IMG/VR virus record: IMGVR_UViG_3300006919_000540
Span: 1-21,811 of that record
Length of the DNA stretch: 21,811 nucleotides
Strand: one strand, 5' to 3'
Source: a virus
Part shown: in pieces, positions 4,650 to 20,561 of the stretch
Numbering within the stretch: position 1 is the first letter of the stretch
Layout: each line of letters opens with the position of its first letter
Program-made: the position numbers and the translations under genes
The notes under the pieces: model-generated
The model's input: only the letters and a program-made list of their open reading frames with translations
The model's database searches: none
What the model was told of the DNA's origin: nothing

Positions 4650-5066
4650 ATGGGTATTAATTTAAAATTTCCGTTGCGTTCTTATCGTAAAGGGTTTTTT
4701 GAGATGAATCAAACAACCGTTGACGCAGTAAGAGAGGACATAAAAATTCTACTACTAACAAAAAAGGGCGAAAGAGTTGTTAACTCCTCTATTGGAACTA
4801 ATATTCCTATTTTAGCTGGACAACTATTTGAGCCAGTAAAGAGAGAAGAATTAGAATTTAAGATAAAAAATGAAATAAAAGATGCATTAGCTAATTGGAT
4901 GCCTTATGTTAGTTTAGAGAGTTTGCAGGTATTTACAGAGGTGGATAAACCTAGGGGTATTGCTTTGAGTCCAACACAAGTTTTGGTTAGTATGAGCTAC
5001 AAAATAAATAACTCTGATGCACTTAGAGATAGTATACAATTAACTATAAATGGAACACCGAGATAA
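4650..5066 (+). CDS. 25: Baseplate wedge subunit, gp25-like (GPW/gp25 family)
   Basis: A 138-residue protein matching the GPW/gp25 family in length and pattern. The diagnostic stretch is residues about 22-62: TVDAVREDIKILLLTKKGERV, followed by IGTNIPILAGQLFEP, the family's 'I-x-x-L-L-x-T-x-x-G-E-R, G-x-x-L-F-E' signature. Residues 66-95 form the expected amphipathic helix ending in W-x-P-(Y), and the C-terminus is beta-rich. In T4 gp25 joins gp6 and gp53 in the baseplate wedge and helps initiate sheath assembly; despite its historical lysozyme label it is structural. It starts nine bases after the spike gene and is followed three bases later by the gp6-like gene, the pairing usual in contractile tails. 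Confidence 0.9.
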   Translation: MGINLKFPLRSYRKGFFEMNQTTVDAVREDIKILLLTKKGERVVNSSIGTNIPILAGQLFEPVKREELEFKIKNEIKDALANWMPYVSLESLQVFTEVDKPRGIALSPTQVLVSMSYKINNSDALRDSIQLTINGTPR

Positions 5067-5069
5067 AAG

Positions 5070-6893
5070 ATGCCAGATTATCAATCAACAAAACCAGTTT
5101 CAAAACAAAAGATGAATGTTAGTTATTTGTCTAAAGATTTTGACTCTATTAAAAAAGATTTAATAGACTACTTAAAAAGATATTATCCAAACGACTATCA
5201 AGATTTTAATGAGGCCTCTGGTGGTATGGCTATCATAGAGTTGTTAGCTTACTTAGGTGATGCAATGTCTTTTTACATTGATAGGCAAGTGAACGAAGGT
5301 TTTATAGATAGAGCAATAGAACCAAAAAACATTTTTTCTTTGGCTCAAAACTTGGGATACAAACCAAAATTTTCAAGGCCTGCAGTAGTTAATCTATCTG
5401 TTAGTGCAGTATTTGAAGATTCCACTAGTGCTGATTCTTTGTATACTATTAAAAAGGGATCAAAAGTAGTTACCAACTTTGAGCCAGCTATTCAATTTGA
5501 AACACTTTCTGATGCAGACTTTTCTAGCCCAAAAGATAGAGTGACAACAAAGCTATCAGCAAACACAACTCAGTATTCTATAACAAGTGTTTCAGCTATG
5601 GCTGGATCAGTAAGAACATTTACTTACACAGCTGGCGACCAAACTATACCTTTTCTAAAAACAACACTACCAGACAAAGAGATAACAGAGATTGTTTCAG
5701 TAACTTCATCTGATGGTAAAGAATATTTTCAAGTTGATAATTTAGCTCAAGGTAGTATTTTTACAGGATACAAAAACAATACATCTTCTTCATCTGATTC
5801 AGCTTACATTTTACAATACAAAAAGATACCTTATAGATTTACAACCGAGGTTTCTGCAGATGGGGAGACATCAATAATTTTTGGTGGCGGAACAAGTGAT
5901 TTAGAAGATTCCGAACTTATACCAAATCCCGAAGATTATGTATTGCCACCAACTCTTAGAGGATCACCTTCTGGTTTTTCACCAGCAATAATAGATTCTT
6001 CAAACTTTCTGAAAACCAAAGGTCTTGGCTATGCACCAAGAAATGTAACTTTAGATATAAAGTATAGATATGGTGGAGGCAATGATACTAATGTCGGCCC
6101 AAGAACTTTAAACAGGTTTGTGTCAAGGGTCATACAATTTGCAAATCAAGATTTTGCAACGAACAATAATGAAGTCGTTCAAAATGCAATCAACTCATTA
6201 TCTGTCACAAATGTTGAACAAGCGTCTGGAGGAGCTGACGAAGAAACAAGAACAGAGATTAAACAAAATGCGGCAGCATTCTTTAATGCGCAAAACAGGG
6301 CTGTCACACTACAAGACTATCAAGTAAGAGTTCTTTCTATGCCACCAGAATTTGGATCAATGTATAGAAGTTATGCAAGAAAAGACCCAAACAATGCATT
6401 AGGTGTAGAACTAATAGGTATAGCCAGAAATGCACAAGGATTTTTGCAAACCCCAACAGGAACATTAAAGAACAATGTTGAGACATACATAAATAGATTC
6501 CGATCATTTTCTGACACTGTAAGAATAAGTGACGGTAAGGTTTGTAACATAGGAATAGATTTTACTATTGTTCCCGATCCAAACGCTAATCTTAACGATG
6601 CATTAGTTGATTGTTTTATTTTACTACAAGGATTATTTGTTGTTGAAAATTCTAACTTTAATGCATCATTAATAATGTCGGATTTTTCTAGTAGACTACA
6701 AGCTCTTGATAAAGTTGCATCAGTTGTTAATTTTAAATTTACGAACATTTATGGAATAGTTGATAGTAGGAATTATGCCAATTATCAATTTGATATTAAA
6801 GCTAATACTCAAAATGGTATTTTAAGTTTTCCACAAGATGTATGTTGGGAATTAAAATATCCTAATTTTGACATAGTGGGGAGAGGAGCATAA
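5070..6893 (+). CDS. 6: Baseplate wedge subunit, gp6-like (baseplate J family)
   Basis: A 607-residue protein close in size to T4 gp6 (660). The N-terminal region (residues about 17-112) carries the conserved hallmarks: NVSYLSKDFDSIKKDL, YYPNDYQDFNEASGGMA, then IELLAYLGDAMSFYIDRQ and NLGYKPKFSRPA. Residues about 365-430 show the baseplate J-type signature: VEQASGGADEETRTEIKQ, then FNAQNRAVTLQDY. gp6 dimers form the ring that joins wedges around the hub, and gpJ plays the same part in P2-type tails. The start follows the gp25-like stop by three bases with only a weak purine tract in front, so coupling is likely. The stop overlaps the next ATG by one base. Confidence 0.92.
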   Translation: MPDYQSTKPVSKQKMNVSYLSKDFDSIKKDLIDYLKRYYPNDYQDFNEASGGMAIIELLAYLGDAMSFYIDRQVNEGFIDRAIEPKNIFSLAQNLGYKPKFSRPAVVNLSVSAVFEDSTSADSLYTIKKGSKVVTNFEPAIQFETLSDADFSSPKDRVTTKLSANTTQYSITSVSAMAGSVRTFTYTAGDQTIPFLKTTLPDKEITEIVSVTSSDGKEYFQVDNLAQGSIFTGYKNNTSSSSDSAYILQYKKIPYRFTTEVSADGETSIIFGGGTSDLEDSELIPNPEDYVLPPTLRGSPSGFSPAIIDSSNFLKTKGLGYAPRNVTLDIKYRYGGGNDTNVGPRTLNRFVSRVIQFANQDFATNNNEVVQNAINSLSVTNVEQASGGADEETRTEIKQNAAAFFNAQNRAVTLQDYQVRVLSMPPEFGSMYRSYARKDPNNALGVELIGIARNAQGFLQTPTGTLKNNVETYINRFRSFSDTVRISDGKVCNIGIDFTIVPDPNANLNDALVDCFILLQGLFVVENSNFNASLIMSDFSSRLQALDKVASVVNFKFTNIYGIVDSRNYANYQFDIKANTQNGILSFPQDVCWELKYPNFDIVGRGA

Positions 6894-8434
6894 TGTCTTT
6901 TGCAAGAACATACGCCACAAAAGATACTTGGATCACAGATGCTGCAGCATCGGCTAACTTTGGACTTTCACCTATTCTTGAAGTTTGGAGTAATTACAAT
7001 AATTTAGTGGAGAGAAAGCAACATGCAAGAATACTTGTAGAGTTTGCTTTATCGTCCCTATCTTCATCTATTATTAATCAAGGAAAGTATCCAGATCCAA
7101 GAACAAATAATACTGTATCTGCTTTTATTTGTATGACCAATGCCAAACATGGAGACTCTCTAGCTACAAATTTTTCTTTGGATGTAATACCATTGACAGG
7201 AAGTTGGTCAGAAGGTTTTGGACTAGATAATGACACTTATACAGATAGCGGCTATGCGAACTCATTAAGTGCTAGTAATACTATTCCGTGGACTTTAAAT
7301 AATGGACAAACTGGCGGGGCTGTTTTTCTTGGCGCTGATAACAATGTTTACGACTCTAATAGTGCAAGTCAATTATTTACAAACGGCCAAGAAGATTTAA
7401 AAGTTGATGTTACTGAGTTCTTCAAAGCTTATTTAAATTACTCTACCGGAACTCCTATAGCAGCTGGGGGAAGTGCAAACAACGGATTCTTAATAAAAAT
7501 GTCTGACATTTATGAATCTAATGATAGTCAGAGGGTTACTAGTTTGGGGGCTGCTGGATCAGTTACAGGTGATTCGTTTTATACCAAGAAATTTTATGGA
7601 AGAGAGACCAATACAAGAAACGCTCCCTATTTTCAATTAGAATGGGATGGAGCAATAAGAGACAATAGGTCTTTAATAAAGTTCTCTAAAACAGGCGATC
7701 TTTATTATTACAATGTTGTTGATGGTGTTTTAACTGATTTAAATGGGATAAGAGAGTTCCCAGGCCATGTTACTATTAGTGCTAATGGTGTTAACATTGA
7801 TACATCAAGTCCAGATGGACTGGTTCTAACAGCTGGTAGGGTTCTTAATGGTGTTTATAAGGTTAACATAGGAAACGCTACTAATGCAGCTGGAACATTA
7901 TCATTAACTGGTATTAACATAGGAGCATCTAGTGCAACCTCTTTTGTTGATAGTTGGACTATAACTACAGCTGGCGAATATGTTACTCAAAACTTTTCCT
8001 TTGATTGTAATCTACCCTCTAATGGTCAACAATACTTGAACACATCTAACTATCAAGTTTCATTAGGCAACTTGAGAGAAAATTATGAGAAGGGAACCTT
8101 ACAACGAGTTAAAGTTTTCGTTCTTGATAAAACAAATCTTTATCCTGCGTTAACTGGAACATCAAGTGCTATGAATGCTAGTTTAATAACAAACTCGACC
8201 TTTGAAATCAGAGAGTTGTTAAATGATGAAGTAGAGGTTCCACCATCCGCGATTTCTTATGACATCAATGGTAACTTTTTTAACTTAGATACAAATCTTC
8301 TTTATGAGGGGATTGATTATAAGATAGTAGTAAAAATAAATGTTAATGGTGAAACTATAGTTTATGATTATCCAGATAAGTGGCAATTTTCAATAGGTGA
8401 TGTATACACAACTAACTATAGATCGGGGTATTAA
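6893..8434 (+). CDS. Beta-sandwich virion protein, DNRLRE-like N-terminal domain
   Basis: A 513-residue protein with a one-base stop/start overlap (TAATG) with the gp6-like gene and a good GAGAGGAG site just before it. The first 255 or so residues follow the DNRLRE-type beta-sandwich plan: an opening ATKDTWITD with ASANFGLSPILEV, then RKQHARILVEFALSSL, then LKVDVTEFFKAYLN, GFLIKMSD, and closing FYTKKFYGRETN with APYFQLEW. The remaining part is also beta-rich and Gly/Asn/Ser-rich, probably one or two Ig-like domains (about 265-480). Such domains occur in secreted adhesins and phage appendages. Its place between gp6- and gp7-like genes suggests a baseplate-attached decoration or fibre-anchoring protein. 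The domain call is from pattern; the virion role is inferred from context. Confidence 0.6.
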   Translation: MSFARTYATKDTWITDAAASANFGLSPILEVWSNYNNLVERKQHARILVEFALSSLSSSIINQGKYPDPRTNNTVSAFICMTNAKHGDSLATNFSLDVIPLTGSWSEGFGLDNDTYTDSGYANSLSASNTIPWTLNNGQTGGAVFLGADNNVYDSNSASQLFTNGQEDLKVDVTEFFKAYLNYSTGTPIAAGGSANNGFLIKMSDIYESNDSQRVTSLGAAGSVTGDSFYTKKFYGRETNTRNAPYFQLEWDGAIRDNRSLIKFSKTGDLYYYNVVDGVLTDLNGIREFPGHVTISANGVNIDTSSPDGLVLTAGRVLNGVYKVNIGNATNAAGTLSLTGINIGASSATSFVDSWTITTAGEYVTQNFSFDCNLPSNGQQYLNTSNYQVSLGNLRENYEKGTLQRVKVFVLDKTNLYPALTGTSSAMNASLITNSTFEIRELLNDEVEVPPSAISYDINGNFFNLDTNLLYEGIDYKIVVKINVNGETIVYDYPDKWQFSIGDVYTTNYRSGY

Positions 8435-8437
8435 TAA

Positions 8438-11400
8438 ATGGCTGATGGCTTTACATTTAATAGTTTATTAACATCTATTTCTGGTGCCGGCTCTTCTAGT
8501 GCAGACTTGGTTAACAAAACACTTACTGGCAATAAAAGCAGAACTATACCCTTAGTTAACTATAATGATTTTTCTTCACACATATTTTTTGGTAATGCCA
8601 TTAGAAGATTCAATACAGCTTATAATGAAATTATTAATAAATATCCCATTGGTTTGTTTGGTTTATCTGCAGGTACCGAACTTCAAACAAACCCCGTAAT
8701 AGGATCAAAAGCAATTTTTGAAGTAGATAACTTTAGAAAATCGGCCGATGGTTTTACTCTTTTTATTTTGGATAGATTGGCTGCCACAGGTAGTGCCTCG
8801 GCTAATTTAGACTCTGAGCCTAATGCCACCCTTATAGCTAAAAATGATCGTGGGGAAAATGTAGAAATAGTTGCTGTTTACAGAAATAACTTAAATGCAT
8901 TGACAGGTGAACAGGCTATAGTGGCCGAAGACATAAGTAATCGAGCAAGATTGTTTGAAGAAGAACAATTAGATACAATTTATAAAACACCTGGCGTTGC
9001 AGTTGAAATAATTGGAACATCTACAGGAACTTATAGGTCTGAAGTATCTTATGCAGCTACTGCTGAAGAAACAATAACAAGATCTGAAAAATTAGAAAAT
9101 CTTTTACCCAGTGTTTTATTTGATCAAGATGATACAGATGTGTTGTCCAGACTATTAGCTGCCTATGGTGACATTATAGATGATTTAAAAATTTTCATTG
9201 ACCAGATACCAAATACAAAAACATTAGATTATGGTAATTATAACAGAATACCAAACAAACTTATTCCTTTGTTTTTGTCCTCTCAGTTTGGCGTAGATGT
9301 TTATGAAAATGCAAAGAAAAGTTCTTTTGAAAAGAGTCTTATAAATGCAGCAGCTACTGGTTTTACAACACAACAAATAACTTATGAAATTTGGAACAGA
9401 ATAGCCAACAATATCTCTCACCTTATAAAAACAAAAGGAACAAGAGAAACAATAGAATCTATTGGTAGAATTTATGGGGTTGATAGCAATTTTCTTAAAA
9501 CAAATGAATATTCTATTTTCTATAAACCAACATTAGTAAGAGAGGTAGAAGAAGTAGACACACCAACCCTATTCTCTGATGGAACTAAGTATGTGCAAAC
9601 CACTGCAAACAGTGCCACGGGGTCTGCCTTGGTCTTCGACATACCAGCCAATACAAACTTCACAATAGAGATGAGAGTCTCTGCAACGGGGTTTTCAGAA
9701 GGTTCTACGGGACATACCTTATTAGTCCACCCTCTGTATTCTATAGAACTCAACCCTTATGGTCAAGTAGCTTTTAGATCAACTGCATCTAGTAGCTTTT
9801 TTGCTCAAACAGAAATGAGTAATCTTTCTGGATATGTTAGAGGATATGGCGGCCCAGATAATTTTCTAAACGTAGCTGTTAGTAGGTCTGGAGACTTTAT
9901 AAATGTTTATGCCATGGCATTGTCATCATCTCCAACTGGAGGTAATGATTATGTTGTAGTAAATAAAAAGACAATTAGCACAGCTGATGTTCCTGGCAAC
10001 ATTTGGAAGGCTAACTTTAGCTCTTCTGGTGGTATAGGAGCTGCAATTAATTTAGACGGAACAGATTATTCACAATTTCCAGCATACTTTCCTGGCACTG
10101 GTGACACAAGATTTACAGGATACTTGCATCAAGTAAGGAAGTGGAATGTAGCCTTAAAAGATGAAGACATAAAAGACCATGTAAGAAATTTTGAATCAAT
10201 CTCTGTTAATTCATCAACAGCGACAGACATTGTTAATGGGGTAGATAATACAGCGAGTTTTGGTGGACTATCAGCTCACTATAAACTAAAAGAAAATGTA
10301 ATACTATCTGGTGACTTTAATTTTATAGTCGATTCCACAACAGCTTCTAACACTGCCCTACCTATTAATTTTGGAGAACAAAAAAGATATCGTGTTTTTC
10401 AAGATATGAAAAAGATAAACTATTATTATCCAGTTGGCTTAGCAGCTGATAATGATAGAATTAGACAAGACGATACTCAAGATGGTATTCAAGATTCGGG
10501 TTTTGTTAGTTTTAGTTTGAATCCGATTAATGCAGTCAACAGAGCTATAAAAAACTTAGATGCAAGTGTAGCTCCAACCGAACTATTAGGAGATGCAGAA
10601 GATCTTTTTAGAAAAGAGTATGGCGGAGATTTTAAGAAAAGATGGCATGAGATAGCAAGAGCGTTTGGTCTTGGCAATGAGGCAGAAATTTCTTCTGATC
10701 CATTAGAGAATGAACTAATAAAAAGAGGTGCATCTGTTTTAGGTAGTGGTATTTCTGGTGTTAGCGGAAACACAGCAAGCTTAGTTGACCTTAATACCTT
10801 CATAAAAGGTATGGGCAATTTTAATGACACTTTTGGTGGGTTATTTTCATTCGCTAAACAATTTTTACCAGCTAAAACAAACATTATTGGTGAGGGTATT
10901 TTTATAGAAAACCATATGTTTGAACGGCCAAAAATGAGAAGGCAGTTTGGTTTTAGAGAATCTACTGCAACAGGGTACGTAGGAGCACCTACTTCAAGTG
11001 GTAATCTTGGACACATTTCTTATGATGAAGGAAGATCAGAATACAACCAAACACCTAGTATAATAGCAATAGAGCCTGAAGTTTTTACTATTAACAATCA
11101 CAACTACGCTGGAGATTTGGCGGAGCAGGGATCTAATAGTGGAAATGAAAGATCTTTAATTGCATCTGCCGCAACGACTGCCGTATTTCAAGGATATAGG
11201 GTGGAAGATAGTGTTCAAGACTTTTTTGAAAAAAGTGTAGAGTCTGGCAGAGCTGTCCCTTCGTTGACAGATAATAGTAGCAGATCGGTTCCGAGATTTT
11301 CACCAACAAGAGTAGGTCGTGTTTTACCTGTTAAGATAACCCCAGCTGCTGGGCCTGTATCTGTTATAGATGTGACATTAGATACTTTATTAATTTCACC

Positions 11401-11881
11401 AACGGCAGCCCCAATTGAGAGTAACATAAGATCTTTAATAAAGGGCACAGCTAGATTGTTAACCAAAGGTCGTTCATTTAAGACCGATCAACCAAGTTTA
11501 AGATTTGAGTTCCCAGCCTCATCTGATGGAACAAACTTATTTGAAGCTACTGTGGGAAATATTTCTCAAGGTAAAGGAAGGCTAATAAAAGATAAAGATA
11601 CTACAATAACAACTACACTAGAAGATGAAAAAATAGAATTTGAACTAAGATTGGCGGATGTTGTGAGATCATTGACATCTGAAAATGCATCGCGTTCTGT
11701 TTCCATTAATGCTGTTGATGAAAGTATCTCTGGGTCTATTGGTATTGTTCCTATAAGAGTGGTAAATCTTTTTAATAATAATACACAAATCTTTAGAGTC
11801 GCTATTAATAGTGATGAAACAAGAGATCAAGACTTTCTTAGACAATTATCAGAACAGGGTGGCGAACAAGTTTCTTCATAG
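8438..11881 (+). CDS. Large baseplate wedge / tail protein I-like protein with LamG domain
   Basis: A 1147-residue protein. Residues about 40-75 (NDFSSHIFFGNAIRRFNTAY, then KYPIG) resemble the start of large wedge proteins of marine T4-type phages. Residues about 225-355 form a helical segment with LSRLLAAYGDIIDDLK, then IWNRIANNISHLIKTKGT and RETIESIGRIYGV; this 'hoLIKTKGT...YGV' pattern is typical of P2 gpI-like tail proteins. Residues about 377-590 are a LamG/concanavalin A-like sandwich (NFTIEMRVSA, then TRFTGYLHQVRKWNVALKDE). The last third contains a helical stretch, Gly-rich segments and beta strands. Size and order after gp6 match T4 gp7 (1032 residues), which bridges wedge and periphery, so it may be the functional counterpart. 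The LamG domain suggests glycan binding. It ends inside the next gene's ribosome binding site. Confidence 0.65.
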   Translation: MADGFTFNSLLTSISGAGSSSADLVNKTLTGNKSRTIPLVNYNDFSSHIFFGNAIRRFNTAYNEIINKYPIGLFGLSAGTELQTNPVIGSKAIFEVDNFRKSADGFTLFILDRLAATGSASANLDSEPNATLIAKNDRGENVEIVAVYRNNLNALTGEQAIVAEDISNRARLFEEEQLDTIYKTPGVAVEIIGTSTGTYRSEVSYAATAEETITRSEKLENLLPSVLFDQDDTDVLSRLLAAYGDIIDDLKIFIDQIPNTKTLDYGNYNRIPNKLIPLFLSSQFGVDVYENAKKSSFEKSLINAAATGFTTQQITYEIWNRIANNISHLIKTKGTRETIESIGRIYGVDSNFLKTNEYSIFYKPTLVREVEEVDTPTLFSDGTKYVQTTANSATGSALVFDIPANTNFTIEMRVSATGFSEGSTGHTLLVHPLYSIELNPYGQVAFRSTASSSFFAQTEMSNLSGYVRGYGGPDNFLNVAVSRSGDFINVYAMALSSSPTGGNDYVVVNKKTISTADVPGNIWKANFSSSGGIGAAINLDGTDYSQFPAYFPGTGDTRFTGYLHQVRKWNVALKDEDIKDHVRNFESISVNSSTATDIVNGVDNTASFGGLSAHYKLKENVILSGDFNFIVDSTTASNTALPINFGEQKRYRVFQDMKKINYYYPVGLAADNDRIRQDDTQDGIQDSGFVSFSLNPINAVNRAIKNLDASVAPTELLGDAEDLFRKEYGGDFKKRWHEIARAFGLGNEAEISSDPLENELIKRGASVLGSGISGVSGNTASLVDLNTFIKGMGNFNDTFGGLFSFAKQFLPAKTNIIGEGIFIENHMFERPKMRRQFGFRESTATGYVGAPTSSGNLGHISYDEGRSEYNQTPSIIAIEPEVFTINNHNYAGDLAEQGSNSGNERSLIASAATTAVFQGYRVEDSVQDFFEKSVESGRAVPSLTDNSSRSVPRFSPTRVGRVLPVKITPAAGPVSVIDVTLDTLLISPTAAPIESNIRSLIKGTARLLTKGRSFKTDQPSLRFEFPASSDGTNLFEATVGNISQGKGRLIKDKDTTITTTLEDEKIEFELRLADVVRSLTSENASRSVSINAVDESISGSIGIVPIRVVNLFNNNTQIFRVAINSDETRDQDFLRQLSEQGGEQVSS

Positions 11882-11886
11882 GAGGT
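11880..11886 (+). promoter_or_regulatory. Strong Shine-Dalgarno site
   Basis: AGGAGGT overlaps the last two bases of the upstream TAG stop and stands five bases before the ATG at 11892. It is the closest match to the anti-Shine-Dalgarno consensus that I noticed in the window, which suggests high or independent translation of the methyltransferase-like gene. Confidence 0.8.
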
Positions 11887-11891
11887 TATAA

Positions 11892-12446
11892 ATGAGTTAT
11901 AAGTTTATTTCTAATTTTAAACAATGCAGCGATGAACAAAAAGTGCAACTAGAGTCATTAATAAGAGAAAGGTTTAAGAATAAATCCATAGATAAGATAA
12001 TAGAGATAGGTTCTTGTGCAGGATTTATAACTCTTGCTCTATCTGGATTATCAAAAAAGGTTATAGCAATGGATAGAGATTATTTTATAAGTCCTTCATT
12101 GCCAGAACATCTTTCTTTAAATCACATAAAAAATGTGGATTACTGTAAAACTAATGATTATTTTGGATCTATTGAAAATCACATGAAGGAAAAGGTAGAC
12201 GCCATAGTTTTTTACGATAAATCTTTTTTTAACATAGAGGAATTAGAAAATTTTGTAAAATTGAAACAAACAAGCGATGTTGTTATTTTCTATTTAGGTG
12301 ATGAAGAGGACAAGTTTTTTTATAAGATAGTAAAACTACCTAAAGAAGATAAAAACAAAGACAAGATAAAAAACAACATTAAAAAAGTTATTAAAAAAGA
12401 AACGATAAATGATAATGAAATAGAAAATGAAGCACCGGAAGTATAA
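11892..12446 (+). CDS. Rossmann-fold, SAM methyltransferase-like protein
   Basis: A 184-residue protein. Residues 36-63 read IIEIGSCAGFITLAL and then KKVIAMDRD, matching methyltransferase motif I (E-x-G-x-x-x-G at 38-44) and the acidic end of strand 2 that usually contacts the SAM ribose. Residues about 102-112 (VDAIVFYDKSF) could be strand 4 (motif IV), and 128-135 (SDVVIFYLG) strand 5. The C-terminal 40 residues are a Lys/Glu/Asn-rich tail with low complexity. It is shorter than most complete class I methyltransferases, so it may be a minimal enzyme or a non-catalytic relative. It lies between a wedge gene and appendage genes, so its target might be a virion protein, but that is inference. 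No substrate-specific motif is visible. Confidence 0.5.
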   Translation: MSYKFISNFKQCSDEQKVQLESLIRERFKNKSIDKIIEIGSCAGFITLALSGLSKKVIAMDRDYFISPSLPEHLSLNHIKNVDYCKTNDYFGSIENHMKEKVDAIVFYDKSFFNIEELENFVKLKQTSDVVIFYLGDEEDKFFYKIVKLPKEDKNKDKIKNNIKKVIKKETINDNEIENEAPEV

Positions 12447-12515
12447 AACTATTACAAAAAACTATTTATTTTATCATGCGTTTTTATTAAAATAAAATAA
12501 AAAAGGAGCATACAA
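12447..12515 (+). promoter_or_regulatory. AT-rich leader before the appendage cassette
   Basis: This 69-base gap is one of three sizeable gaps between genes in the window. TATAAAAC at 12442-12449, overlapping the upstream stop, matches the T4 late motif at six of eight positions, so a degenerate late promoter is possible but weak. An all-A/T inverted repeat (TTTTTATT at 12481-12488 with AATAAAAA at 12496-12503) stops just at the ribosome binding site; it would be an unstable hairpin. Confidence 0.25.
12504..12508 (+). promoter_or_regulatory. Ribosome binding site selecting a TTG start
   Basis: AGGAG seven bases before TTG at 12516 identifies that TTG as the start; no in-frame ATG upstream is usable. 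The nearby ATG at 12476 is in another frame and stops after four codons. Confidence 0.7.
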
Positions 12516-13082
12516 TTGGCATTTCTTGATAGCACTACAGCGGTTATAGACGCAATTCTCACAAAAAAAGGTAGAGAATTATTAGCTAAAAATGACGGAA
12601 GTTTTCAAATCACTAAGTTTGCTTTTGGTGATGATGAAATTAATTACCAACACTATGAAGCAACAAGAGCAACCGGTCAAGACACCGACATACTTAATCT
12701 TCCAATCTTAGAACCAGTATCTAATGAAGATGTGGCTCTATTATATAGGCTAGTATCATTGCCTGCAGGGACTCTGAAGGTTGCAACTTTAAAAATAACA
12801 CCAACAATAGGAACAGTCGATTTTGGTGATGACCTAACAGTAACAGTTATAACTGAAAACGGTACTGATAGCCAAGGTTACGCAGCCACATCAAGAGATT
12901 TAAACATTGCCAAGTTAGATAACCTAACAGCAGAGCCTGATGATAATGGAGTAGCTACCTTTACTATCAAGACAGGCGAAAATGCTGGAGGATCAGATGG
13001 ATCTACCATTATTGACATAACAGGTATTAACACGGGCGCAAGAAGGCAGTTAACATTTAACGTTAGTTCTTCTGGAATTTAA
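12516..13082 (+). CDS. Virion appendage protein with C-terminal Ig-like domain
   Basis: A 188-residue protein that starts at TTG, chosen because AGGAG stands seven bases upstream and the N-terminus then aligns with a familiar pattern: MAFLDSTTAVIDAILTKKGR, then ELLAKNDGSFQITKFAFGDD and EINY. This N-terminal segment (residues 3-45) resembles a family of small structural proteins in T4-type marine phages, with helix 'VIDAxLTKKGRexLA' and strand 'FxITKFAfGDDEI'. Residues about 90-185 are beta-rich with alternating hydrophobics (LTVTVITENGTD, ATFTIKTGENAG, STIIDITGIN) and look like a single bacterial Ig-like domain. It opens the appendage cassette, fifteen bases before the next gene. A role as fibre base, neck or baseplate decoration is inferred. 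Confidence 0.6.
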   Translation: MAFLDSTTAVIDAILTKKGRELLAKNDGSFQITKFAFGDDEINYQHYEATRATGQDTDILNLPILEPVSNEDVALLYRLVSLPAGTLKVATLKITPTIGTVDFGDDLTVTVITENGTDSQGYAATSRDLNIAKLDNLTAEPDDNGVATFTIKTGENAGGSDGSTIIDITGINTGARRQLTFNVSSSGI

Positions 13083-13097
13083 AATTAGGGAATAATT

Positions 13098-13973
13098 ATG
13101 TCATTAGTCAATTTTGATTTAGAAAGAGACATTACAATCTCTGAGGTAGTATCAAAAACAAACTATCAAATAGATTCGGCCACTGCCGCAGCAGAGAGAA
13201 ATATAAACTCGTTTGTGACAGAATCTACTGCAACAGGTTTTCTCGCTAACGCAAGGGGCACAACAACTACTACTCCGCTGAGTTCAGCTTTTAGAAGTAT
13301 TTCAAATTATTATTTTTCTACTTCAGCGGCCGCTGTTGTTCCTGTAGCACAGAATAACATTGCTACTACTGGTATAGCAAGAGTTATAACACTGGGAAGA
13401 ACAACTGCAGATGATTCTATTTTATCTGGGTCTGTTACTGCACGTTTTAGTTTTGGTTCTGTTCCAAATAAAGTTATTATAGATAGACCAGAGTCTTCTA
13501 TCTCTGGCAACATTGGTAGAAAGGGTGATCTAGTTGAAAAGGCTGAGCCTTCAAATATTGTAGGTACTGTTTTTTATGACACAGGTACTATGGTTTTTCA
13601 TGGTGGCGATTTTTCAAGGGATACCAACTTTTTGGCTAATTCTGCCTCTGGATTTGTTTTTGGGCCTGGGGCCACCGCTGGTAAAATTGCAATTAATGAA
13701 TTAAGTTTTATTAGCTTAAACATGATTAAGAGAAGCGTGTTTTTTACAAGAGCTTTCAACAGAGATTTTAACTATACTAATAATCCAACATCAATACAAA
13801 ATACAGCTATTGGATCAATAACTTCTAGCTTAACAGGATTTCCTACAACATTTATAACAACGGTTGGACTATATAATAATGATAATGATTTGCTGGCTGT
13901 AGCTAAGGTATCGCCTGCAGTAAAGAAGGATTTCACTACTGAAAAAACTTTTGCTGTTAGATTACAGTACTAA
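13098..13973 (+). CDS. Appendage protein A, minimal GLYNxDND-module protein
   Basis: A 291-residue protein preceded by AGGGA. It seems to be mostly one conserved module, which recurs in the next two genes. The order of landmarks is: a strand pair IARVITLG with SILSGSVTARFSFG (about residues 93-120), a turn-strand GTVFYDTGTMVFHG (about 155-168), FNYTNNPTSI (about 224-233), and the C-terminal FITTVGLYNNDNDLLAVAKV, a Pro-x-Val-Lys-Lys turn and a final strand ending RLQY. It is rich in Ser, Thr, Ala and Gly, as phage fibre proteins are, with no signal peptide or membrane segment. Comparable modules occur in structural proteins of T4-type marine phages. Because it lacks inserts it can serve as the reference for the other two copies. 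Confidence 0.6.
   Translation: MSLVNFDLERDITISEVVSKTNYQIDSATAAAERNINSFVTESTATGFLANARGTTTTTPLSSAFRSISNYYFSTSAAAVVPVAQNNIATTGIARVITLGRTTADDSILSGSVTARFSFGSVPNKVIIDRPESSISGNIGRKGDLVEKAEPSNIVGTVFYDTGTMVFHGGDFSRDTNFLANSASGFVFGPGATAGKIAINELSFISLNMIKRSVFFTRAFNRDFNYTNNPTSIQNTAIGSITSSLTGFPTTFITTVGLYNNDNDLLAVAKVSPAVKKDFTTEKTFAVRLQY
13768..13970 (+). repeat. C-terminal GLYNxDND module, copy A
   Basis: Protein-level repeat: NYTNNPTS, then TTVGLYNNDNDLLAVAK, a P-x-V-K-K turn and a terminal beta strand. It aligns without ambiguity to copies B and C in the next two genes. The DNA is diverged, so this is an old duplication or modular exchange. Confidence 0.75.
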
Positions 13974-13989
13974 TCTGAGTTAAATAATC

Positions 13990-16347
13990 ATGTCTTATAA
14001 GGCCTTTAGTGAAAATGAAATTCAACCAACTCCATTAGATGATAAAACATCTATAAGTATTAGCGAGGACTCTCCCTGTGCTTCTCATGTGCATTTGTTT
14101 ACTGGGATAAGATCATTAGGAAAAGTTAACTTTTATGACCCTAATGAATCATCAGTCTTTGGGATAATAACACCAAAAGAAATACAATATAAATGGGCAT
14201 TTGATAATGTTGTTTTGGCTGGTCAAGATTCACTTACTGCCAAAATAACTGATGGCGTTTTTATAAGCACAGCAGATCAGACTTATAGAAGCTCAACTAA
14301 TAGTGAGTCTTTAGCTTCTCACCAAGATATCTTTAGGCACGCACAAGGATATCTTTACAGAGAAGATAAGGCTTTAAAAAATGGTGCTAAAATAACAGAC
14401 GCTCTTTTTAGTTCTTCTTCAGCTAATTATGAAACATCTGTAATCAGAGAGATTGTCATTAGAAGGGATCTTCTTAATTCCGGAATAGATCCAACTAGCT
14501 TTAGAGTCCAAATAAATAATTCAAACACCTCTATTACTGGCTCAGTCAATGGCCCTTCTGCAAATGATAAGTTTACTTCGGCTGTATTAGGTCAATACGG
14601 ACCCGAAACACCAAATCTTTCTGCCTATGCAGTTGCAATGGACATAAAGAATCCTTATGGAGGTGTAGAGGGCACGACAAAAAAATCTTTTTTTGGGGTT
14701 GATGTTAGTACAACTGAATCAGATCCCTTTTTAGCTAATAATGGATCTGGATATACATCATTTACTAATTTAGATAGTATAATAGATGCATGTTCAATAG
14801 AAGCTATCATTAGGCCCTTTAGAACTGATTCTACGATTTATTTTAGAAGATTAGCTAACTCTTCTTCACCTCTTTCAAAAGATCAGTTTATGAAGTTAGA
14901 GTTAACCAATGCTCCAGATGGTTCATCTCCAGCTTTTAGATTCTCTATTAGGTCTGCCACCGGGGATGGTGAGTTTGTAAATGACTTTGCTGTTGCTAAC
15001 ATTCAAGCTTCGGGACTGTTTGTTCCAAACGACGTTGGTATAAACATTTTTGATGGCAATTTCCATCACATTGTAGCCACTTGGGATGTTAGTGAAATAA
15101 TAGATACACAAAGTCAAGCTAGTGCAGAACGCGGGGCAGGGGTTGTTCTTGGATACATTGATGGTTATAAACTACAAAACAAAGAGCAAGTATTTCCTAG
15201 ATTGCCTGGATCTGATGCAGCTGATGGCCCAGCGCCTCAAGCTAATATGTTAGAGAATAGAATACCTATAAGAACATCTCCTCTTTACGATGGCACTATA
15301 GAAAATTCCCCAACTGGAAATAATGCATACATTGGTGTTTCTAATTATAACAGATTAGACGGCGACACTAAGGGCGACCGCGGTGAATTAGCCAGTCAGT
15401 TTGACGCTAAACTTGATGGACTATACGATGGACAAATACAACACCTAAGATTATGGAATCAAAGATTAAAAGATGGAACAACTGGGTATAACATTAATGT
15501 AGGTAGGCAAATCTATAATGATAGAAGTTATAGCTCCACCGGTTCTCTGTTATTATCTTTTGAGGATTTTAAAAACAGTGCGCTAACTTCATCCTCTGCT
15601 TCTAACATTGTATCATGGTGGAGTTTCAATAATGTTAATAGTACAACCGCAGCGGACATTGCAGGGGGCCTTAGTGGAAACTCAATGGGGATAGACGCCT
15701 TTGGTAACATTTCTTCAAACACAGGTAGTGTTATAGGTAATTCTACAATAAAAGTTTTTGATGCAAAAGACATAACTTTAGGGACAAGCGGAAACTTAAT
15801 TACTGACGCACAAATGGTGGATGTTCCTAGAGATTTTCTTTATTTTGATCAACCAGTAATAGAGAATCCTATAGACAACTTTATTAGACAAGGAAAACTA
15901 ATAAGAAACGCAATAGATGGAACACAAAGCTCAATAGGAGTTTTGTTTTATGACTTAGGAATAGCTTCTATAGACTCTGATGATGTCAACGCTCGTTTAC
16001 AATTTACACTACCCACCTCTGGAACTACTGGCGATTATGGATTTGCTGTGACAGGACACTTAAATACTAGTATTAATTTACAGAGGGTTTCTTTTGATTC
16101 GGTATCAAAGAAGGGAAGGTTGTTGTTAAATGCTGTAGCTTCAGGCACAGAAATGAATTATGCTGGCAATCCTACAGGTTTTAATAACGCAACTGCAGAA
16201 AGTGTTTTTGATGATCCAACATCTTTTATAACTTCTGTTGGATTATATAATTACGACAATGATTTAATAGCTGTTGCAAAACTAGCTAAACCAGTTAGAA
16301 AAGATGAAACTATTAATCTTACAACACAAATAAGTTTAGATTTTTAG
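13990..16347 (+). CDS. Appendage protein B: GLYNxDND module with nested LamG domain
   Basis: A 785-residue protein. Its first conserved half is at residues about 153-178 (EIVIRRDLLNSGIDPTSFRV), matching the 'I-x-PGS' strand pair of the neighbouring proteins. The second half resumes at about 648 (IGVLFYDLGIASID), then NYAGNPTGF and the C-terminal TSVGLYNYDNDLIAVAKLAK. Between them lies a LamG/concanavalin A-like domain (about 255-495; SIEAIIRPFRT, DGNFHHIVATWDV, GYIDGYKL, GQIQHLRLWNQRLKDG) and a following segment with IVSWWSFNN (about 538-546). The first 100 residues are specific to this gene. No clear Shine-Dalgarno site precedes the ATG; GAG at 13977 is the only candidate. Likely a fibre or spike with a glycan-binding domain; virion role inferred. 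Confidence 0.65.
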   Translation: MSYKAFSENEIQPTPLDDKTSISISEDSPCASHVHLFTGIRSLGKVNFYDPNESSVFGIITPKEIQYKWAFDNVVLAGQDSLTAKITDGVFISTADQTYRSSTNSESLASHQDIFRHAQGYLYREDKALKNGAKITDALFSSSSANYETSVIREIVIRRDLLNSGIDPTSFRVQINNSNTSITGSVNGPSANDKFTSAVLGQYGPETPNLSAYAVAMDIKNPYGGVEGTTKKSFFGVDVSTTESDPFLANNGSGYTSFTNLDSIIDACSIEAIIRPFRTDSTIYFRRLANSSSPLSKDQFMKLELTNAPDGSSPAFRFSIRSATGDGEFVNDFAVANIQASGLFVPNDVGINIFDGNFHHIVATWDVSEIIDTQSQASAERGAGVVLGYIDGYKLQNKEQVFPRLPGSDAADGPAPQANMLENRIPIRTSPLYDGTIENSPTGNNAYIGVSNYNRLDGDTKGDRGELASQFDAKLDGLYDGQIQHLRLWNQRLKDGTTGYNINVGRQIYNDRSYSSTGSLLLSFEDFKNSALTSSSASNIVSWWSFNNVNSTTAADIAGGLSGNSMGIDAFGNISSNTGSVIGNSTIKVFDAKDITLGTSGNLITDAQMVDVPRDFLYFDQPVIENPIDNFIRQGKLIRNAIDGTQSSIGVLFYDLGIASIDSDDVNARLQFTLPTSGTTGDYGFAVTGHLNTSINLQRVSFDSVSKKGRLLLNAVASGTEMNYAGNPTGFNNATAESVFDDPTSFITSVGLYNYDNDLIAVAKLAKPVRKDETINLTTQISLDF
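16150..16344 (+). repeat. C-terminal GLYNxDND module, copy B
   Basis: Protein-level repeat: MNYAGNPTGF, then ITSVGLYNYDNDLIAVAK, PVRKD and a terminal strand ending LDF. It aligns with copy A and copy C. Confidence 0.75.
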
Positions 16348-16356
16348 GAAATAAAA

Positions 16357-17331
16357 ATGCCAAAAGAATTAATACAACAATTTTTAAATGGATCAACAAC
16401 AGCTGGGCCTCGGATTCCAGTAGCTGTTCATCCTTTAATAAGCACGACATATGTGTCAATAGAGCCACAAGATCAGTTTTTCTATAATTGGGAAACTCAA
16501 TCATTAAGATCTATTACTGGTATGAATAATCAAAACCCAGGCAAAGAAGACCACATTATGACTCACAAGGACATAATTAAGGCATTCACAGCTAGTGTAA
16601 CTGGATCTAGTTCTTCTTATTTTTTTGTTGTTGGTGGGCTGGTTAATCAAAGAACGGGATTGTCTACCTTAACCTCAACAACTACTTCTAGTTTTATTAA
16701 CACTGGCAATGTTAGAGACATCGGCGTTTTTGCCTTAAGTAAAAGATTGTATGATAGTCAAGTTATTCCTGGCTCTTTGACAGCTACTGTCACCGGATCA
16801 AATTTTGAAGCGGAAGATATTTCGGGAGACTATTTTGATTCTGGATCTGGATCTCTTATTAAGAAAAACGATGGCCAAACTATAGGCATTGTATTGCCAG
16901 ACGATGGAATGTTTGTTGTTACCGCATCAAATTATAGAGAAGTTGCAACAGCAGTAACAGCAGTAAAATTTAAAACAAGAGTTCTTAACACAACCCTTAA
17001 TGTTTTTTGTAAAGTAAGTTCTGATCAATTAAATTATACTTTTAATCCCACTTCTTTTATGCAAAATGCAATTAGTGGCAACGCTGGTGCATCAGATCAA
17101 ATACAACAATCTTATAATAACATAACTACTAAATCAAGTTTAACAGGGGATTCATCTAGATCTCTTTATTTAAGTGGATTGGTTTCTTCTGGCACTGATT
17201 TTTCTCCATACATGTCATCTATTGGTTTGTATAATGACGATAATGATTTGTTAGCATTAGCTAAATTTACTAAACCACTTAAAAAGCCAACAGACTTACC
17301 TCTTACAGTGAAACTTCAATTAGACTTATAA
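16357..17331 (+). CDS. Appendage protein C, GLYNxDND-module protein
   Basis: A 324-residue protein with AGGAA overlapping the upstream stop codon, six bases before its ATG. The N-terminal 115 residues differ from proteins A and B; they include VAVHPLISTTYVSI and a Gly/Ser/Thr-rich stretch. The shared module follows: DIGVFALSKRLYDSQVIPGS (about 121-140), GIVLPDDGMFVVTAS (about 175-189), NYTFNPTSF (about 224-232) and MSSIGLYNDDNDLLALAKF near the end, with PLKKP and a final strand ending LDL. Relative to A it has about 30 extra residues between the NPTS and GLYN elements. Probably an appendage subunit whose variable N-terminus docks to a different partner; this is inference from the shared C-terminal half. 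Confidence 0.6.
   Translation: MPKELIQQFLNGSTTAGPRIPVAVHPLISTTYVSIEPQDQFFYNWETQSLRSITGMNNQNPGKEDHIMTHKDIIKAFTASVTGSSSSYFFVVGGLVNQRTGLSTLTSTTTSSFINTGNVRDIGVFALSKRLYDSQVIPGSLTATVTGSNFEAEDISGDYFDSGSGSLIKKNDGQTIGIVLPDDGMFVVTASNYREVATAVTAVKFKTRVLNTTLNVFCKVSSDQLNYTFNPTSFMQNAISGNAGASDQIQQSYNNITTKSSLTGDSSRSLYLSGLVSSGTDFSPYMSSIGLYNDDNDLLALAKFTKPLKKPTDLPLTVKLQLDL
17028..17328 (+). repeat. C-terminal GLYNxDND module, copy C
   Basis: Protein-level repeat: NYTFNPTSF, a copy-specific spacer, then SSIGLYNDDNDLLALAK, PLKKP and a terminal strand ending LDL. Confidence 0.75.
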
Positions 17332-17344
17332 GGATCTTTAAAAA

Positions 17345-19099
17345 ATGTTTAAAATTATACCAGCAGATGCAAGAGGCAAATGGCAAAAAATTAATGGAAG
17401 ACTAATAGAGAACCCAGAAACTATAGACTTCAGCGATACACCTTCTGAAGGATTACCCAGTGGGGTGCCAAGGACTGGATTAAATGTAGATGGAGTACTA
17501 ACTGGATCTGATCAATCTTTAGAGTTTGATGGCGTTGATGATTATTTTATTCTTCCTACGATTAATGGGTTAGGAACAGAAATTTTATTAGAGGGTATAG
17601 GTAAAAATGCAGTAACTCATGGATCAACTTCTAATAACATTGCATTTGAATCTTGGATTAAAGTAGAATCTTCAACCACTGCTACTGATAGAAACAGCGA
17701 AGTTTTTGAAGTAACCATACAAAGGAACTCTATTTCATCAACCACAGGTTATGATGGCGTTTATACCGTCCGTACAATAAATGCACTTAGTGCGTTCGAT
17801 TCTGATGTTACAACTCAACAATACGGTCCGGGTTCTGTACCACTTTCTGCTTATTATTTAGACTTCTTATTTGCTACAGCTAGTAATTTCGCTTATTCTG
17901 TTTCATCTACTTGTAATGTTCCTTTTGATGAGTGGGTTCATGTTTGGTGTGAACATTCAGTAACAGGTGGTTTAGGTGATCCGTTTTTTAAACCATCACC
18001 AAGGCACACCTTTAAGCTTTACATGAATGGTGAACTAAACAGATATCAAACAGGCGATGATTGTATGGCAAAGGCCAATGATTTAGATCCTTTTCCCTCA
18101 ACTACACTACCTCTTAACTTCTTTGGTGATAGACAGATAAGCTTTGATGGGCAGTTAGATGAAATGAGAATTTGGCTTAATTCTGGAACAACAGACTCTA
18201 TAATTGAATTAGCTAAACCAGAAAACATTGGAATAATACCAGAGGATTTTTCTTCTCAGGCTTTTTCATCTGAAGTTAAGTTACAATTTGCACCCAGTGC
18301 AGAATATTGTGTGGCTTGGTGGAGATTTGAAACACTATCTGCTGCAGATCTATTTGCAAACGTTGCAGATTCTATCGTTGATACTTCTGAGTATAACCAT
18401 AATGGAACACCTATAGGGTTTGTGGGGTCTGTAGACTTTTCTGAAGAAGAAACTATAGTGCAAGGCCAGACTATTTCTGGTGGGTGGCTATCATCGGTAT
18501 CGGGTGGACTTTTTGATCATGGAGGATTAACTATAATACATGATGACCAAGAGGAATTAATTTCTGAAGAAGGAGTGGAGAATTTAGTAGGATCTGGAAA
18601 TAGTTTATGGGTTGCGTCTGGTGACTCATCGATAGTTGGCATAGATAGATTAAATATATTTTATGGAGCTTCGGCTCATGTCATTAATACAAATAAAGCA
18701 GGAGAAGGAGCTATACATAACATTGACTATAGCAATTTACTTTATGACAGAAATGACTATACTCTTTCTATGAGAATGTTACTAACAACTGGTTCTGCAT
18801 CTGCTAGAGTAACTTACACATTAGGCCACGCTGCAAACTCTGCAGCAACAACTGCAGTTTTTAATAACGTTACATGGAAACCTTTAGTTATGACATTACC
18901 AGTTTCAGCAGATGTGAATGAGCCTTCTATAACAGGATCTGTTGGTATTCAACAATTACATAACTCAGCTGAGCCTGATAATGGATCATTATTTAGGGTT
19001 GATGGATTGCAATTGCAAGAAGGTGACTATTACTCTGTGTTCGTTGGCCCAGATCAAATTAGAAAAGGTTCACAATTATCATGGAATGTGGTGGATTAA
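17345..19099 (+). CDS. Appendage protein D, LamG plus C-terminal carbohydrate-binding-like domain
   Basis: A 584-residue protein preceded by AAGGA, which overlaps the stop of protein C. The LamG/concanavalin A-like domain occupies residues about 55-290: SLEFDGVDDYFILP, IAFESWIKVE, DEWVHVWCEH, KLYMNGELNRY, FDGQLDEMRIWLNSG. A segment after it (about 318-330, CVAWWRFE) matches the WW-x-F element that also follows the LamG domain of protein B. The last 150 or so residues are another beta-sandwich (YTLSMRMLLTTGSA, VTYTLGHAA, then RVDGLQLQEGDYYSVFVGP) that resembles CBM 4/9-like modules, where 'aDGLQLEeG' is a common closing pattern. It lacks the GLYNxDND module. Likely a glycan-recognising fibre or spike; two binding domains in one chain could raise avidity. 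The role is inferred. Confidence 0.6.
   Translation: MFKIIPADARGKWQKINGRLIENPETIDFSDTPSEGLPSGVPRTGLNVDGVLTGSDQSLEFDGVDDYFILPTINGLGTEILLEGIGKNAVTHGSTSNNIAFESWIKVESSTTATDRNSEVFEVTIQRNSISSTTGYDGVYTVRTINALSAFDSDVTTQQYGPGSVPLSAYYLDFLFATASNFAYSVSSTCNVPFDEWVHVWCEHSVTGGLGDPFFKPSPRHTFKLYMNGELNRYQTGDDCMAKANDLDPFPSTTLPLNFFGDRQISFDGQLDEMRIWLNSGTTDSIIELAKPENIGIIPEDFSSQAFSSEVKLQFAPSAEYCVAWWRFETLSAADLFANVADSIVDTSEYNHNGTPIGFVGSVDFSEEETIVQGQTISGGWLSSVSGGLFDHGGLTIIHDDQEELISEEGVENLVGSGNSLWVASGDSSIVGIDRLNIFYGASAHVINTNKAGEGAIHNIDYSNLLYDRNDYTLSMRMLLTTGSASARVTYTLGHAANSAATTAVFNNVTWKPLVMTLPVSADVNEPSITGSVGIQQLHNSAEPDNGSLFRVDGLQLQEGDYYSVFVGPDQIRKGSQLSWNVVD
19090..19095 (+). promoter_or_regulatory. Ribosome binding site choosing the 19101 start
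   Basis: GGTGGA-type purine tract five bases before ATG 19101, which itself lies two bases after the upstream TAA. The longer frame back to 18942 would overlap the previous gene by 158 bases and add a Cys/His/Trp-containing stretch unlike the rest of the protein, so the short form is preferred. Confidence 0.55.
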
Positions 19100-19100
19100 A

Positions 19101-20561
19101 ATGCAAGTTAATAATATAAACTTAGAATATAGAGTTGATTTTAAAAGTAATAAAGGTAATTTTGACAAACAACCCATCTTTAATTTAGTTAGAGGAGTTG
19201 GGCTAACAGGAAATGATTTTATTTCTCTTTATAGAGTAAGAAGATCTACTGAAAATGATATAAGTATAACTGCAGCAGGTTCAACCGCAGGTGCAGTAGT
19301 AGGTCTCACCTATGGCGACAACACAGGAATAACTTCTGTTACAGGTAATTATAGATTAAGATCTTATGCATTTGTTCCTGGCCAATCAAGCTTGACAGCC
19401 GATTGGGGATCAGATGCACTTGTTGATGGAGGTACAGCTTCTTTAACAAACATCTCAACAACTTCTGATCTTTATAAATATACTTATGATATAAATTTTT
19501 CCAAAAAAGATAACATTATAGATTTAATAATTCTTGATGAAACTAGTCAGATAACTGATAGAGTATTGCAAATAAAGGATGCACCTACTTTATCAGCTCT
19601 TACTGTTTTAGGTACAGGAATTAGGCCTATAGGTAGAGACTCTATTGAAGACACTACTCCTACAGGCGAATTAGGTAAAGCAGAAATATTGACCTATCTA
19701 TACAATCAAATGCAAGGCCTTCCAACGTGGGAGTCAGCAGGATTAACAGGAGTTTTTGATAGTTCTTATAATGCCCTTTCTGCATCATTAGAAGGTAAGG
19801 CAGCTGGAGGCACAGGTAATGTTCCTGTTCCCAGTGAAAGAGTAACTTTTGAAAATGGTGTTTTAACAGGAACTATTAGTGGTTGGTCTATGGGTCCAAC
19901 AGAGGGTGGATTCAGATTAGATGGTGGAGGATTTATTAAGAGTGTACCCAGTGAACTCTTCAAAACTAGACACCATAGTACTACTGGAATGACAGTAATG
20001 GGATATGTGAGATTGCATAGTAGTGCTTCTAATCAATCTTTATTTCATCTCGGAGATACTTCTGATAGATCATTGCAATTAAGATTGGAAAACGGTGAAT
20101 TAGTTTTTTCAAATGGATTAGCATCAATTACTGCTGGTGCAATAACTGCTGGAGATAATCCAATGGCTGGCGGTAGAAATTATAAACTTAATAGATGGTA
20201 CCACATAGCCGCTAAAATAACAGCTACTGGATCTGACTCTGGTATGAGTATGTATGTTAATGGAGAAAAAGCATTACTTGCAAGAACAATTACCGGAGAT
20301 TCTCTGACAAGCACAATTTCTGGAGGTGGAGATATTATAACAGCTTTAGATAGTTCAGCTTGGACAGTTGCTATGGATCGTGTTAGCAATACACAAAGAC
20401 TATTTATAGGTGATGACTCTTCTTCTACTGGAACAAACCTTCCTTTTGACGTAGGTTTAACAAGAGTTTTTACTAGGCCACTATCTGATAGCGAAATTTT
20501 TATTAACTTTATTTCAACAATACCTAGTAACACTGTTATTAAAAACATCAAAGCAGGTTAA
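19101..20561 (+). CDS. Appendage protein E with C-terminal LamG domain
   Basis: A 486-residue protein from the ATG at 19101. The N-terminus is MQVNNINLEYRVDFKSNKG. The first 130 or so residues are beta-rich (FISLYRVRRST, VVGLTYGDN, GNYRLRSYAFVPG), followed by a further beta/helix part containing ILTYLYNQMQGLPTWESAG. Residues about 269-480 are LamG/concanavalin A-like: GGFRLDGGGFIKSV, TGMTVMGYVRLHS, LFHLGDTSDRSLQLRL, LNRWYHIAAKIT, GMSMYVNGEKAL, LFIGDDSS and VGLTRVFTRPLSDSEIFINF. The 'W-Y-H-I-A' and 'V-N-G' elements are the usual LamG core. It closes the appendage cassette and is followed by an 81-base gap with a late promoter motif. Likely a distal fibre or receptor-binding subunit, inferred from domain and position. 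Confidence 0.6.
   Translation: MQVNNINLEYRVDFKSNKGNFDKQPIFNLVRGVGLTGNDFISLYRVRRSTENDISITAAGSTAGAVVGLTYGDNTGITSVTGNYRLRSYAFVPGQSSLTADWGSDALVDGGTASLTNISTTSDLYKYTYDINFSKKDNIIDLIILDETSQITDRVLQIKDAPTLSALTVLGTGIRPIGRDSIEDTTPTGELGKAEILTYLYNQMQGLPTWESAGLTGVFDSSYNALSASLEGKAAGGTGNVPVPSERVTFENGVLTGTISGWSMGPTEGGFRLDGGGFIKSVPSELFKTRHHSTTGMTVMGYVRLHSSASNQSLFHLGDTSDRSLQLRLENGELVFSNGLASITAGAITAGDNPMAGGRNYKLNRWYHIAAKITATGSDSGMSMYVNGEKALLARTITGDSLTSTISGGGDIITALDSSAWTVAMDRVSNTQRLFIGDDSSSTGTNLPFDVGLTRVFTRPLSDSEIFINFISTIPSNTVIKNIKAG

Follow-up and report, generated by a model that had tools for sequence, protein, structure and literature searches.

Introduction

In siphophages of Gram-positive hosts, evolved Dit proteins carry carbohydrate-binding modules inserted in the peripheral-domain loops of a conserved tail scaffold, and they bind the same host as the main receptor-binding protein (PMC7291167). 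In the gene order of T4, the genes for gp7 to gp12 come after that for gp6. How the locus described in the following compares with these systems is the focus of this report.

The window (i.e. the whole stretch of viral DNA analysed, 21,811 nucleotides) contains three consecutive genes, here called A, B and C, whose products, homologous along most of their length, are paralogues within a scaffold family of T4-like contractile phages that has not been described before. Predicted baseplate wedge genes, gp25-like and gp6/J-like (4650..6893, forward strand; PF04965 2.1e-7, PF04865 6.4e-6, phrog_219 2.9e-32), place the scaffold block in a contractile-tail baseplate cluster. A late sigma factor-like protein (2217-2870; phrog_234, E 2.7e-5) is also encoded amid the tail genes.

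Three scaffold paralogues and their family

Copy A (13098..13973, forward strand, 291 aa) is a scaffold without insert, in which four segments can be distinguished: N0 (residues 1-77), N1 (95-137), C1 (155-231) and C2 (249-291). Copy C (16357..17331, forward strand, 324 aa) is likewise insert-free, with N1 at 122-168, C1 at 176-232 and C2 at 282-323. The open reading frame of copy B (13990-16347, also forward) consists of an N-terminal scaffold part (13990..14538, residues 1-183, ending just past the IDPTSF strand), an insert of about 450 residues (14539..15885, residues 184-632), placed by the scaffold profiles on both flanks, and a C-terminal scaffold part (15886..16347, residues 633-785 plus the stop).

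Sub-profiles of the four segments were built from insert-free copies. For copy A, which is itself within the alignment behind them, they give E values of 3.6e-8 (N0), 7.6e-7 (N1), 4.1e-13 (C1) and 4.4e-20 (C2); for copy C the values are 2.4e-7 (N1), 1.9e-13 (C1) and 2.6e-18 (C2), and C2 of copy B scores 1.3e-17. The succession N1, C1, C2, by which the family is defined, is found by the sub-profiles in A and C; in B, the sub-profiles find C1 and C2, and the N-part is found by an HMM of last-type copies, i.e. those in the last position of their block.

Pairwise identity among the three is only about 30%. The BLASTP values are far above chance, from 3e-17 for A-B (32% over 207 residues) through 4e-10 for B-C to 4e-9 for A-C, the last pair reaching 5.6e-18 by hhalign, and they bear out the shared module that a sequence-only reading had proposed; the coordinates of the three ORFs and the order of the landmarks in each are also as it gave them. 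Neither Pfam nor PHROGs yields a significant match for any of the three. All contain NYxxNPT and GLYNxDNDL(L/I)A(V/L)AK; the upstream landmark, first written as I-x-PGS/PTS, is present in B and C, but A has SGS in place of PGS. The distance from this strand to the next landmark is about 42 residues in A (ILSGSV 108-113, VGTVFYDTG 155-163), about 36 in C (VIPGSL 136-141, GIVLPDDG 177-184) and 478 in B (IDPTSF 166-171, GVLFYDLG 650-657), in keeping with the short gaps and the long one of about 470 residues noticed at the outset. The shared module is real, but it is wider than was thought, and takes in all of A and also the N-terminal part of B.

With an iterated profile of the common C-terminal region, 88 ORFs were retrieved in the first locus set and at least 249 family ORFs after a wider scan; two of the scans matched at least 600 stretches each, and the family is, therefore, large. 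Its named members are found in Microcystis phage Mel-JY01 (five copies), Flavobacterium phage immuto (two) and Rhodothermus phage RM378 (one), and a 484-kb metagenomic phage has two. Exactly two copies are present in 63 of the 69 untruncated loci, three in four, five in one and a single copy in one, numbers that describe carriers only, because the loci were picked for homology to the module. The block has a conserved leader, the protein P0004 of the window (12516..13082, forward strand, 188 aa, N-terminus ILTKKGRELLAKNDGSFQITKFAFGDDEINY), with weak matches to PHROG tail and tail fiber families; in all 69 untruncated loci the first scaffold copy is directly preceded by a homologue of P0004, at 60 nt or less in 67. 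Two relatives out of 72 have a match to phrog_1215 (4e-6) and two to DUF7209 (4e-5), families that are both without function. The genome contigs gave no relative of A, and no paper on the scaffold family was found in a literature search. The picture is that of a widespread family, associated with the baseplate, for which Pfam and PHROGs offer no functional model.

Contents of the insertion loop in related phages

Among the matches listed, 215 copies have both N1 and C1, and the gap between them has quartiles of 9, 22 and 29 residues. Its distribution is bimodal: no values fall between 80 and 239 residues, and 13 copies lie at 239-519. Twelve of these 13 long loops are LamG-type, seven by Pfam scan (Laminin_G_3 from 1e-7 to 6e-20) and the remaining five by the similar look of those inspected, and one, in L036 (L-numbers are labels of related loci or contigs), is an FG-GAP beta-propeller (E 2.2e-15). 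Laminin_G_3 is also found in the inserts of L271 and L275 (2.5e-10 and 5e-18, respectively), which makes nine of nine for the fused LamG-type inserts that were scanned, and in the split copy L080 (E 2e-6); the cultured phage Mel-JY01 has it, at 1.6e-15, in a scaffold copy (L043:20481-22253). In the propeller group, a dockerin-like insert of 162-178 residues (PF00404 E 0.0013, short of the Pfam cut-off) occupies a second loop, the one between NPT and YITTxGLY. The expectation that homologues would carry different domains in the same loop is thus borne out by LamG, by the FG-GAP beta-propeller and by gene breaks with PKD or propeller parts. Parsimony counts three origins of the loop insertion; independent origins are not claimed, because an AU test is compatible with a single clade (p 0.28). 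A 1063-aa ORF (L051:3256-6447) has a last-type scaffold-like start followed by long Thr-Pro repeats.

Scaffolds broken into separate genes

Most genes of the propeller group are interrupted at the N1-C1 insertion loop itself. At least 80 C-halves, in 13 sequence clusters, belong to this group, and 74 of the 80 have an N-half gene upstream, 60 nt or less away in 66 of these 74 and with a 4-nt ATGA-type overlap in 27. In L014, for instance, the N-half (8280-8903, 207 aa) and the C-half (8900-11215) are joined by such a stop-start overlap; the split with ATGA overlap is conserved across many contigs among its relatives, L013-L024. Programmed frameshifting at the L014 junction was considered, but with the stop two codons before the C-half ATG and no slippery run evident, separate translation is more likely. 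The same parts are fused in one gene in L036 (8344-11187), a relative of L014 and L032, and the N-half of L032 (8337-11132, 931 aa) carries four PKD domains (PKD_4 3.2e-54) and, at its end, leucine-rich-like repeats.

The propeller may even form a gene of its own. L250 (5899-8822) has three consecutive genes, for an N-half of 209 aa, a free-standing beta-propeller of 469 aa and a C-half of 294 aa; L247 is arranged in the same way, L248 and L251 have the same gap, and the propeller as third gene characterizes one of the 13 sequence clusters. The break lies elsewhere, past the VGNIFY strand, in L004 and L009. A simple frame disruption in one contig, L054, was rejected as a split copy and, for that reason, left out of the count.

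Some further arrangements were observed. In L256 (3959-6093) one C-half gene is preceded by two different N-half genes. A GlcNAc-transferase gene (PF11397, 4e-72) and a Thr-Pro-repeat ORF lie between the scaffold halves of L004 (4890-8303). In L022 (8318-9358), a NUMOD3 homing-endonuclease-like gene separates the N-half gene from the first scaffold copy; it is absent in close relatives such as L014.

Conservation of both halves suggests that they reassemble. More tentatively, and with rather more doubt than confidence, it may be proposed that the loop is a true modular socket, that the scaffold would fold even with its chain broken there, that N-half, display domain and C-half would assemble in trans on the baseplate, and that host-binding parts would be exchangeable as whole genes. 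Natural gene breaks at this same loop would amount to an unusual split display scaffold, and could guide the display of binding domains on laboratory phages.

Proposed role of the scaffold and its insert

In the reading that we prefer, with a probability of roughly two in three, A, B and C are scaffold paralogues, the loop of B holds about 450 residues that include a diverged LamG-like domain, and the scaffold parts are most likely located in the outer baseplate, with the insert held outward onto host glycans. Each scaffold would consist of an N-part, made of a long strand followed by the PGS/PTS strand, and a C-part with the motifs VGxxFYxxG, NYxxNPT and GLYNxDNDLLAVAK, the loop between the two being the one that would tolerate insertion; insert-free copies would serve as structural or adaptor units. 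Location in the virion, with host-binding domains displayed outward at the baseplate, is what the gene context and the loop contents suggest, and the binding of host surface glycans is what the domain type points to; a literature search found neither virion proteomics nor binding evidence for any relative.

Related phages fill the loop with other domains or break the gene there, which gives it the appearance of a natural socket in which host-binding parts are displayed. LamG and propeller domains are, on the other hand, also protein-binding modules, the scaffold block lies inside a baseplate cluster, and the inserts are retained within clades, all of which would suit contacts inside the virion, or assembly, instead of host binding. 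We hold this alternative to be improbable: unrelated domains (LamG, propeller, PKD tails) swapped at one site fit a variable receptor contact better. Display of domains that contact the host, as in evolved Dit, is the best explanation for the exchange of unrelated binding-type domains at a baseplate-linked loop.

The insert of copy B

That B is an interrupted scaffold follows from matches on both sides of its insert. The C-terminal flank (residues 632-785) matches independent copies with an hhalign E of 4.4e-24. On the N-terminal side, residues 59-182 match an N-part HMM whose only source is the last-type copies of other phages (13.3 bits, E 4.7e-6), and none of 4000 shuffles did as well; the orthologue of B in L050 scores 15.4 bits with the same HMM (E 1.1e-6, again 0/4000 shuffles), and the score of the L049 orthologue is not significant alone. 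The best values stand, because correction for the thirty N-part tests (six HMMs on five sequences) leaves them intact. Independently, MAFFT aligns IDPTSF of B with the IKPASF found in LamG-bearing copies from other phages. Profile similarity extends, therefore, well beyond the short GLYN motif, and B can be described as a single scaffold that has taken up about 450 residues at one loop. The sequence-only reading had postulated just such a scaffold with an insertion-tolerant loop, and both the flanks of B and the different fillings in other phages agree with it.

The C-terminal similarity is by far the strongest, both in BLASTP and in hhalign, and could be taken to mean that only the C-terminal 150-190 residues are common, as a tail-docking module, so that B would be a plain fusion, with an unrelated N-terminal part and LamG joined to the docking module and no loop insertion. 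In line with this, single sub-profile searches miss the N-part of B, and hhalign of this part with the pooled family gives only a weak 0.006. This reading is judged quite unlikely, given that the independent last-type HMM matches B and its L050 orthologue collinearly up to the PTSF strand, and that other LamG-bearing copies have an unmistakable N-part beyond the insert.

What fills the loop of B is less straightforward. The LamG domain that had been proposed is indeed at the loop in the form of an insert with a WW-x-F partner strand (HHIVATW 15064, GYIDGYK 15151, YDGQIQHLRLWNQRLKD 15424, partner strand WWSFNN 15616), but Pfam is blind to it: the insert has no match even at E 10, the PF13385 cut-off is not reached, and no LamG match is found in its orthologues. 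The connection is provided by the next protein (17345..19099, forward strand, 584 aa), which has a Laminin_G_3-like domain and then a WWRF partner, with landmarks in the same order as in the B insert. This protein matches PF13385 at E 4.6e-4, short of the Pfam cut-off; it is matched by the B-insert profile at 4e-5 (hhalign), across the YDGQ...LRLW and WW.F landmarks, and matches bona fide Laminin_G_3 inserts at 3e-10. The B insert is, thus, probably a diverged LamG-like domain, whose link to LamG is transitive. For a putative ConA-like fold, the AlphaFold model is of low confidence (pLDDT about 27-64 in that region), and profile searches of solved structures with the insert gave no match. Besides B, full or partial Laminin_G_3 matches occur in three further proteins of the window (8438-11881, 17345-19099 and 18942-20561, within 8438-20561), and several LamG-like domains are therefore present in one cluster of this phage.

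Predicted structures

The AlphaFold model of A is mainly beta (pLDDT 73.8, pTM 0.65). In BFVD it finds a 330-aa phage protein at 5.5e-16 and two phage proteins annotated as 'Concanavalin A-like lectin', one of 530 aa (TM 0.48 over 532 columns, with the insert spanned) and one of 546 aa (TM 0.49), and the predicted fold thus matches viral lectin-bearing relatives end to end. The model of B (pLDDT 42, pTM 0.30) is too poor for superposition. Its better-predicted parts include residues 1-20, about 150-170, 634-660 and 701-785, the last being the best (pLDDT 61-81), with strands ordered as in A, an agreement with the alignment that is no proof, because the input alignment already carried that register.

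Foldseek of the A model against the PDB gave no match with E below 0.27. In VIA, the top-ranking entries, namely a P1 head-structure chain (Z 5.8), the C-terminal part of T4 gp6 (Z 5.4) and a baseplate chain of Klebsiella phage KP1 (Z 5.3), do not rise above the stated background. Profile searches of solved structures with the scaffold family gave no match. No known fold is claimed for the scaffold, because the PDB matches are not above background.

Age of the duplication

The window had been read as a case of serial duplication in one phage. Three copies are indeed present, but this understates the case, in that a first/last pair is conserved in nearly all relatives. In a tree of the conserved C-parts, from which insert columns were excluded and which rests on few resolved columns, first-position and last-position copies form separate deep groups in nearly all phages, and the first/last pair is therefore old. 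A, B and C of the window each cluster with orthologues from L047-L050, and these follow in the same order in L048, L049 and L050; no C copy was found in L047. The duplication appears, on this evidence, to be ancient and not peculiar to this phage, and the middle copy B to be particular to the clade of the window.

A recent local amplification in this phage, as the adjacent and co-directional genes might suggest, is highly improbable with a pairwise identity this low, and for A and C it is already contradicted by the deep split of first-type and last-type copies over many phages and by the shared order of the orthologues. The first observation was, in sum, right and its interpretation largely holds, within a wider view, supported by the data above, of an ancient paralogue family with a recurrent site of insertion and breakage.

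Comparison with known systems

The scaffold block occupies the same place in the gene order as gp7 to gp12 of T4, after wedge genes of the gp25/gp6 type. It differs in having no profile similarity to the T4 baseplate set: hhalign with gp6, gp7, gp8, gp9, gp10, gp11, gp12, gp53 and wac gave nothing significant, and the structural score with the C-terminal part of gp6 is background. The fibre N-terminus of P2 gpH, which we had presumed to be possible kin of the scaffold, was dropped when Pfam gave no support.

Mel-JY01, immuto (gp105 and gp106) and RM378 (Rm378p128) encode proteins that the HMM assigns to the scaffold family, and in each of them the leader gene stands upstream; these phages differ in copy number, and all the proteins are annotated only as hypothetical.

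The closest analogue would be the evolved Dit proteins, by likeness of architecture. In both cases a glycan-binding-type domain is found in a tail-scaffold loop, here Laminin_G_3 between N1 and C1 in the relatives; for B the likeness lies in the placing of the insert at the loop, the LamG identity being transitive. No Dit match was found in Pfam or PHROGs for A, B, C or the 72 members, although a fold may be shared even so. The differences are as marked as the likeness. Dit, a hub protein of siphophages, has a peripheral domain of the galectin type, whereas the scaffold family sits in contractile baseplate clusters, in the form of tandem paralogues often gene-broken at the loop, and its neighbours are gp25- and gp6/J-like wedge genes instead of the siphophage TMP-Dit-Tal triad. 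The loop would be a concrete site at which phages swap host-contact domains, and would extend the evolved-Dit principle to contractile phages.
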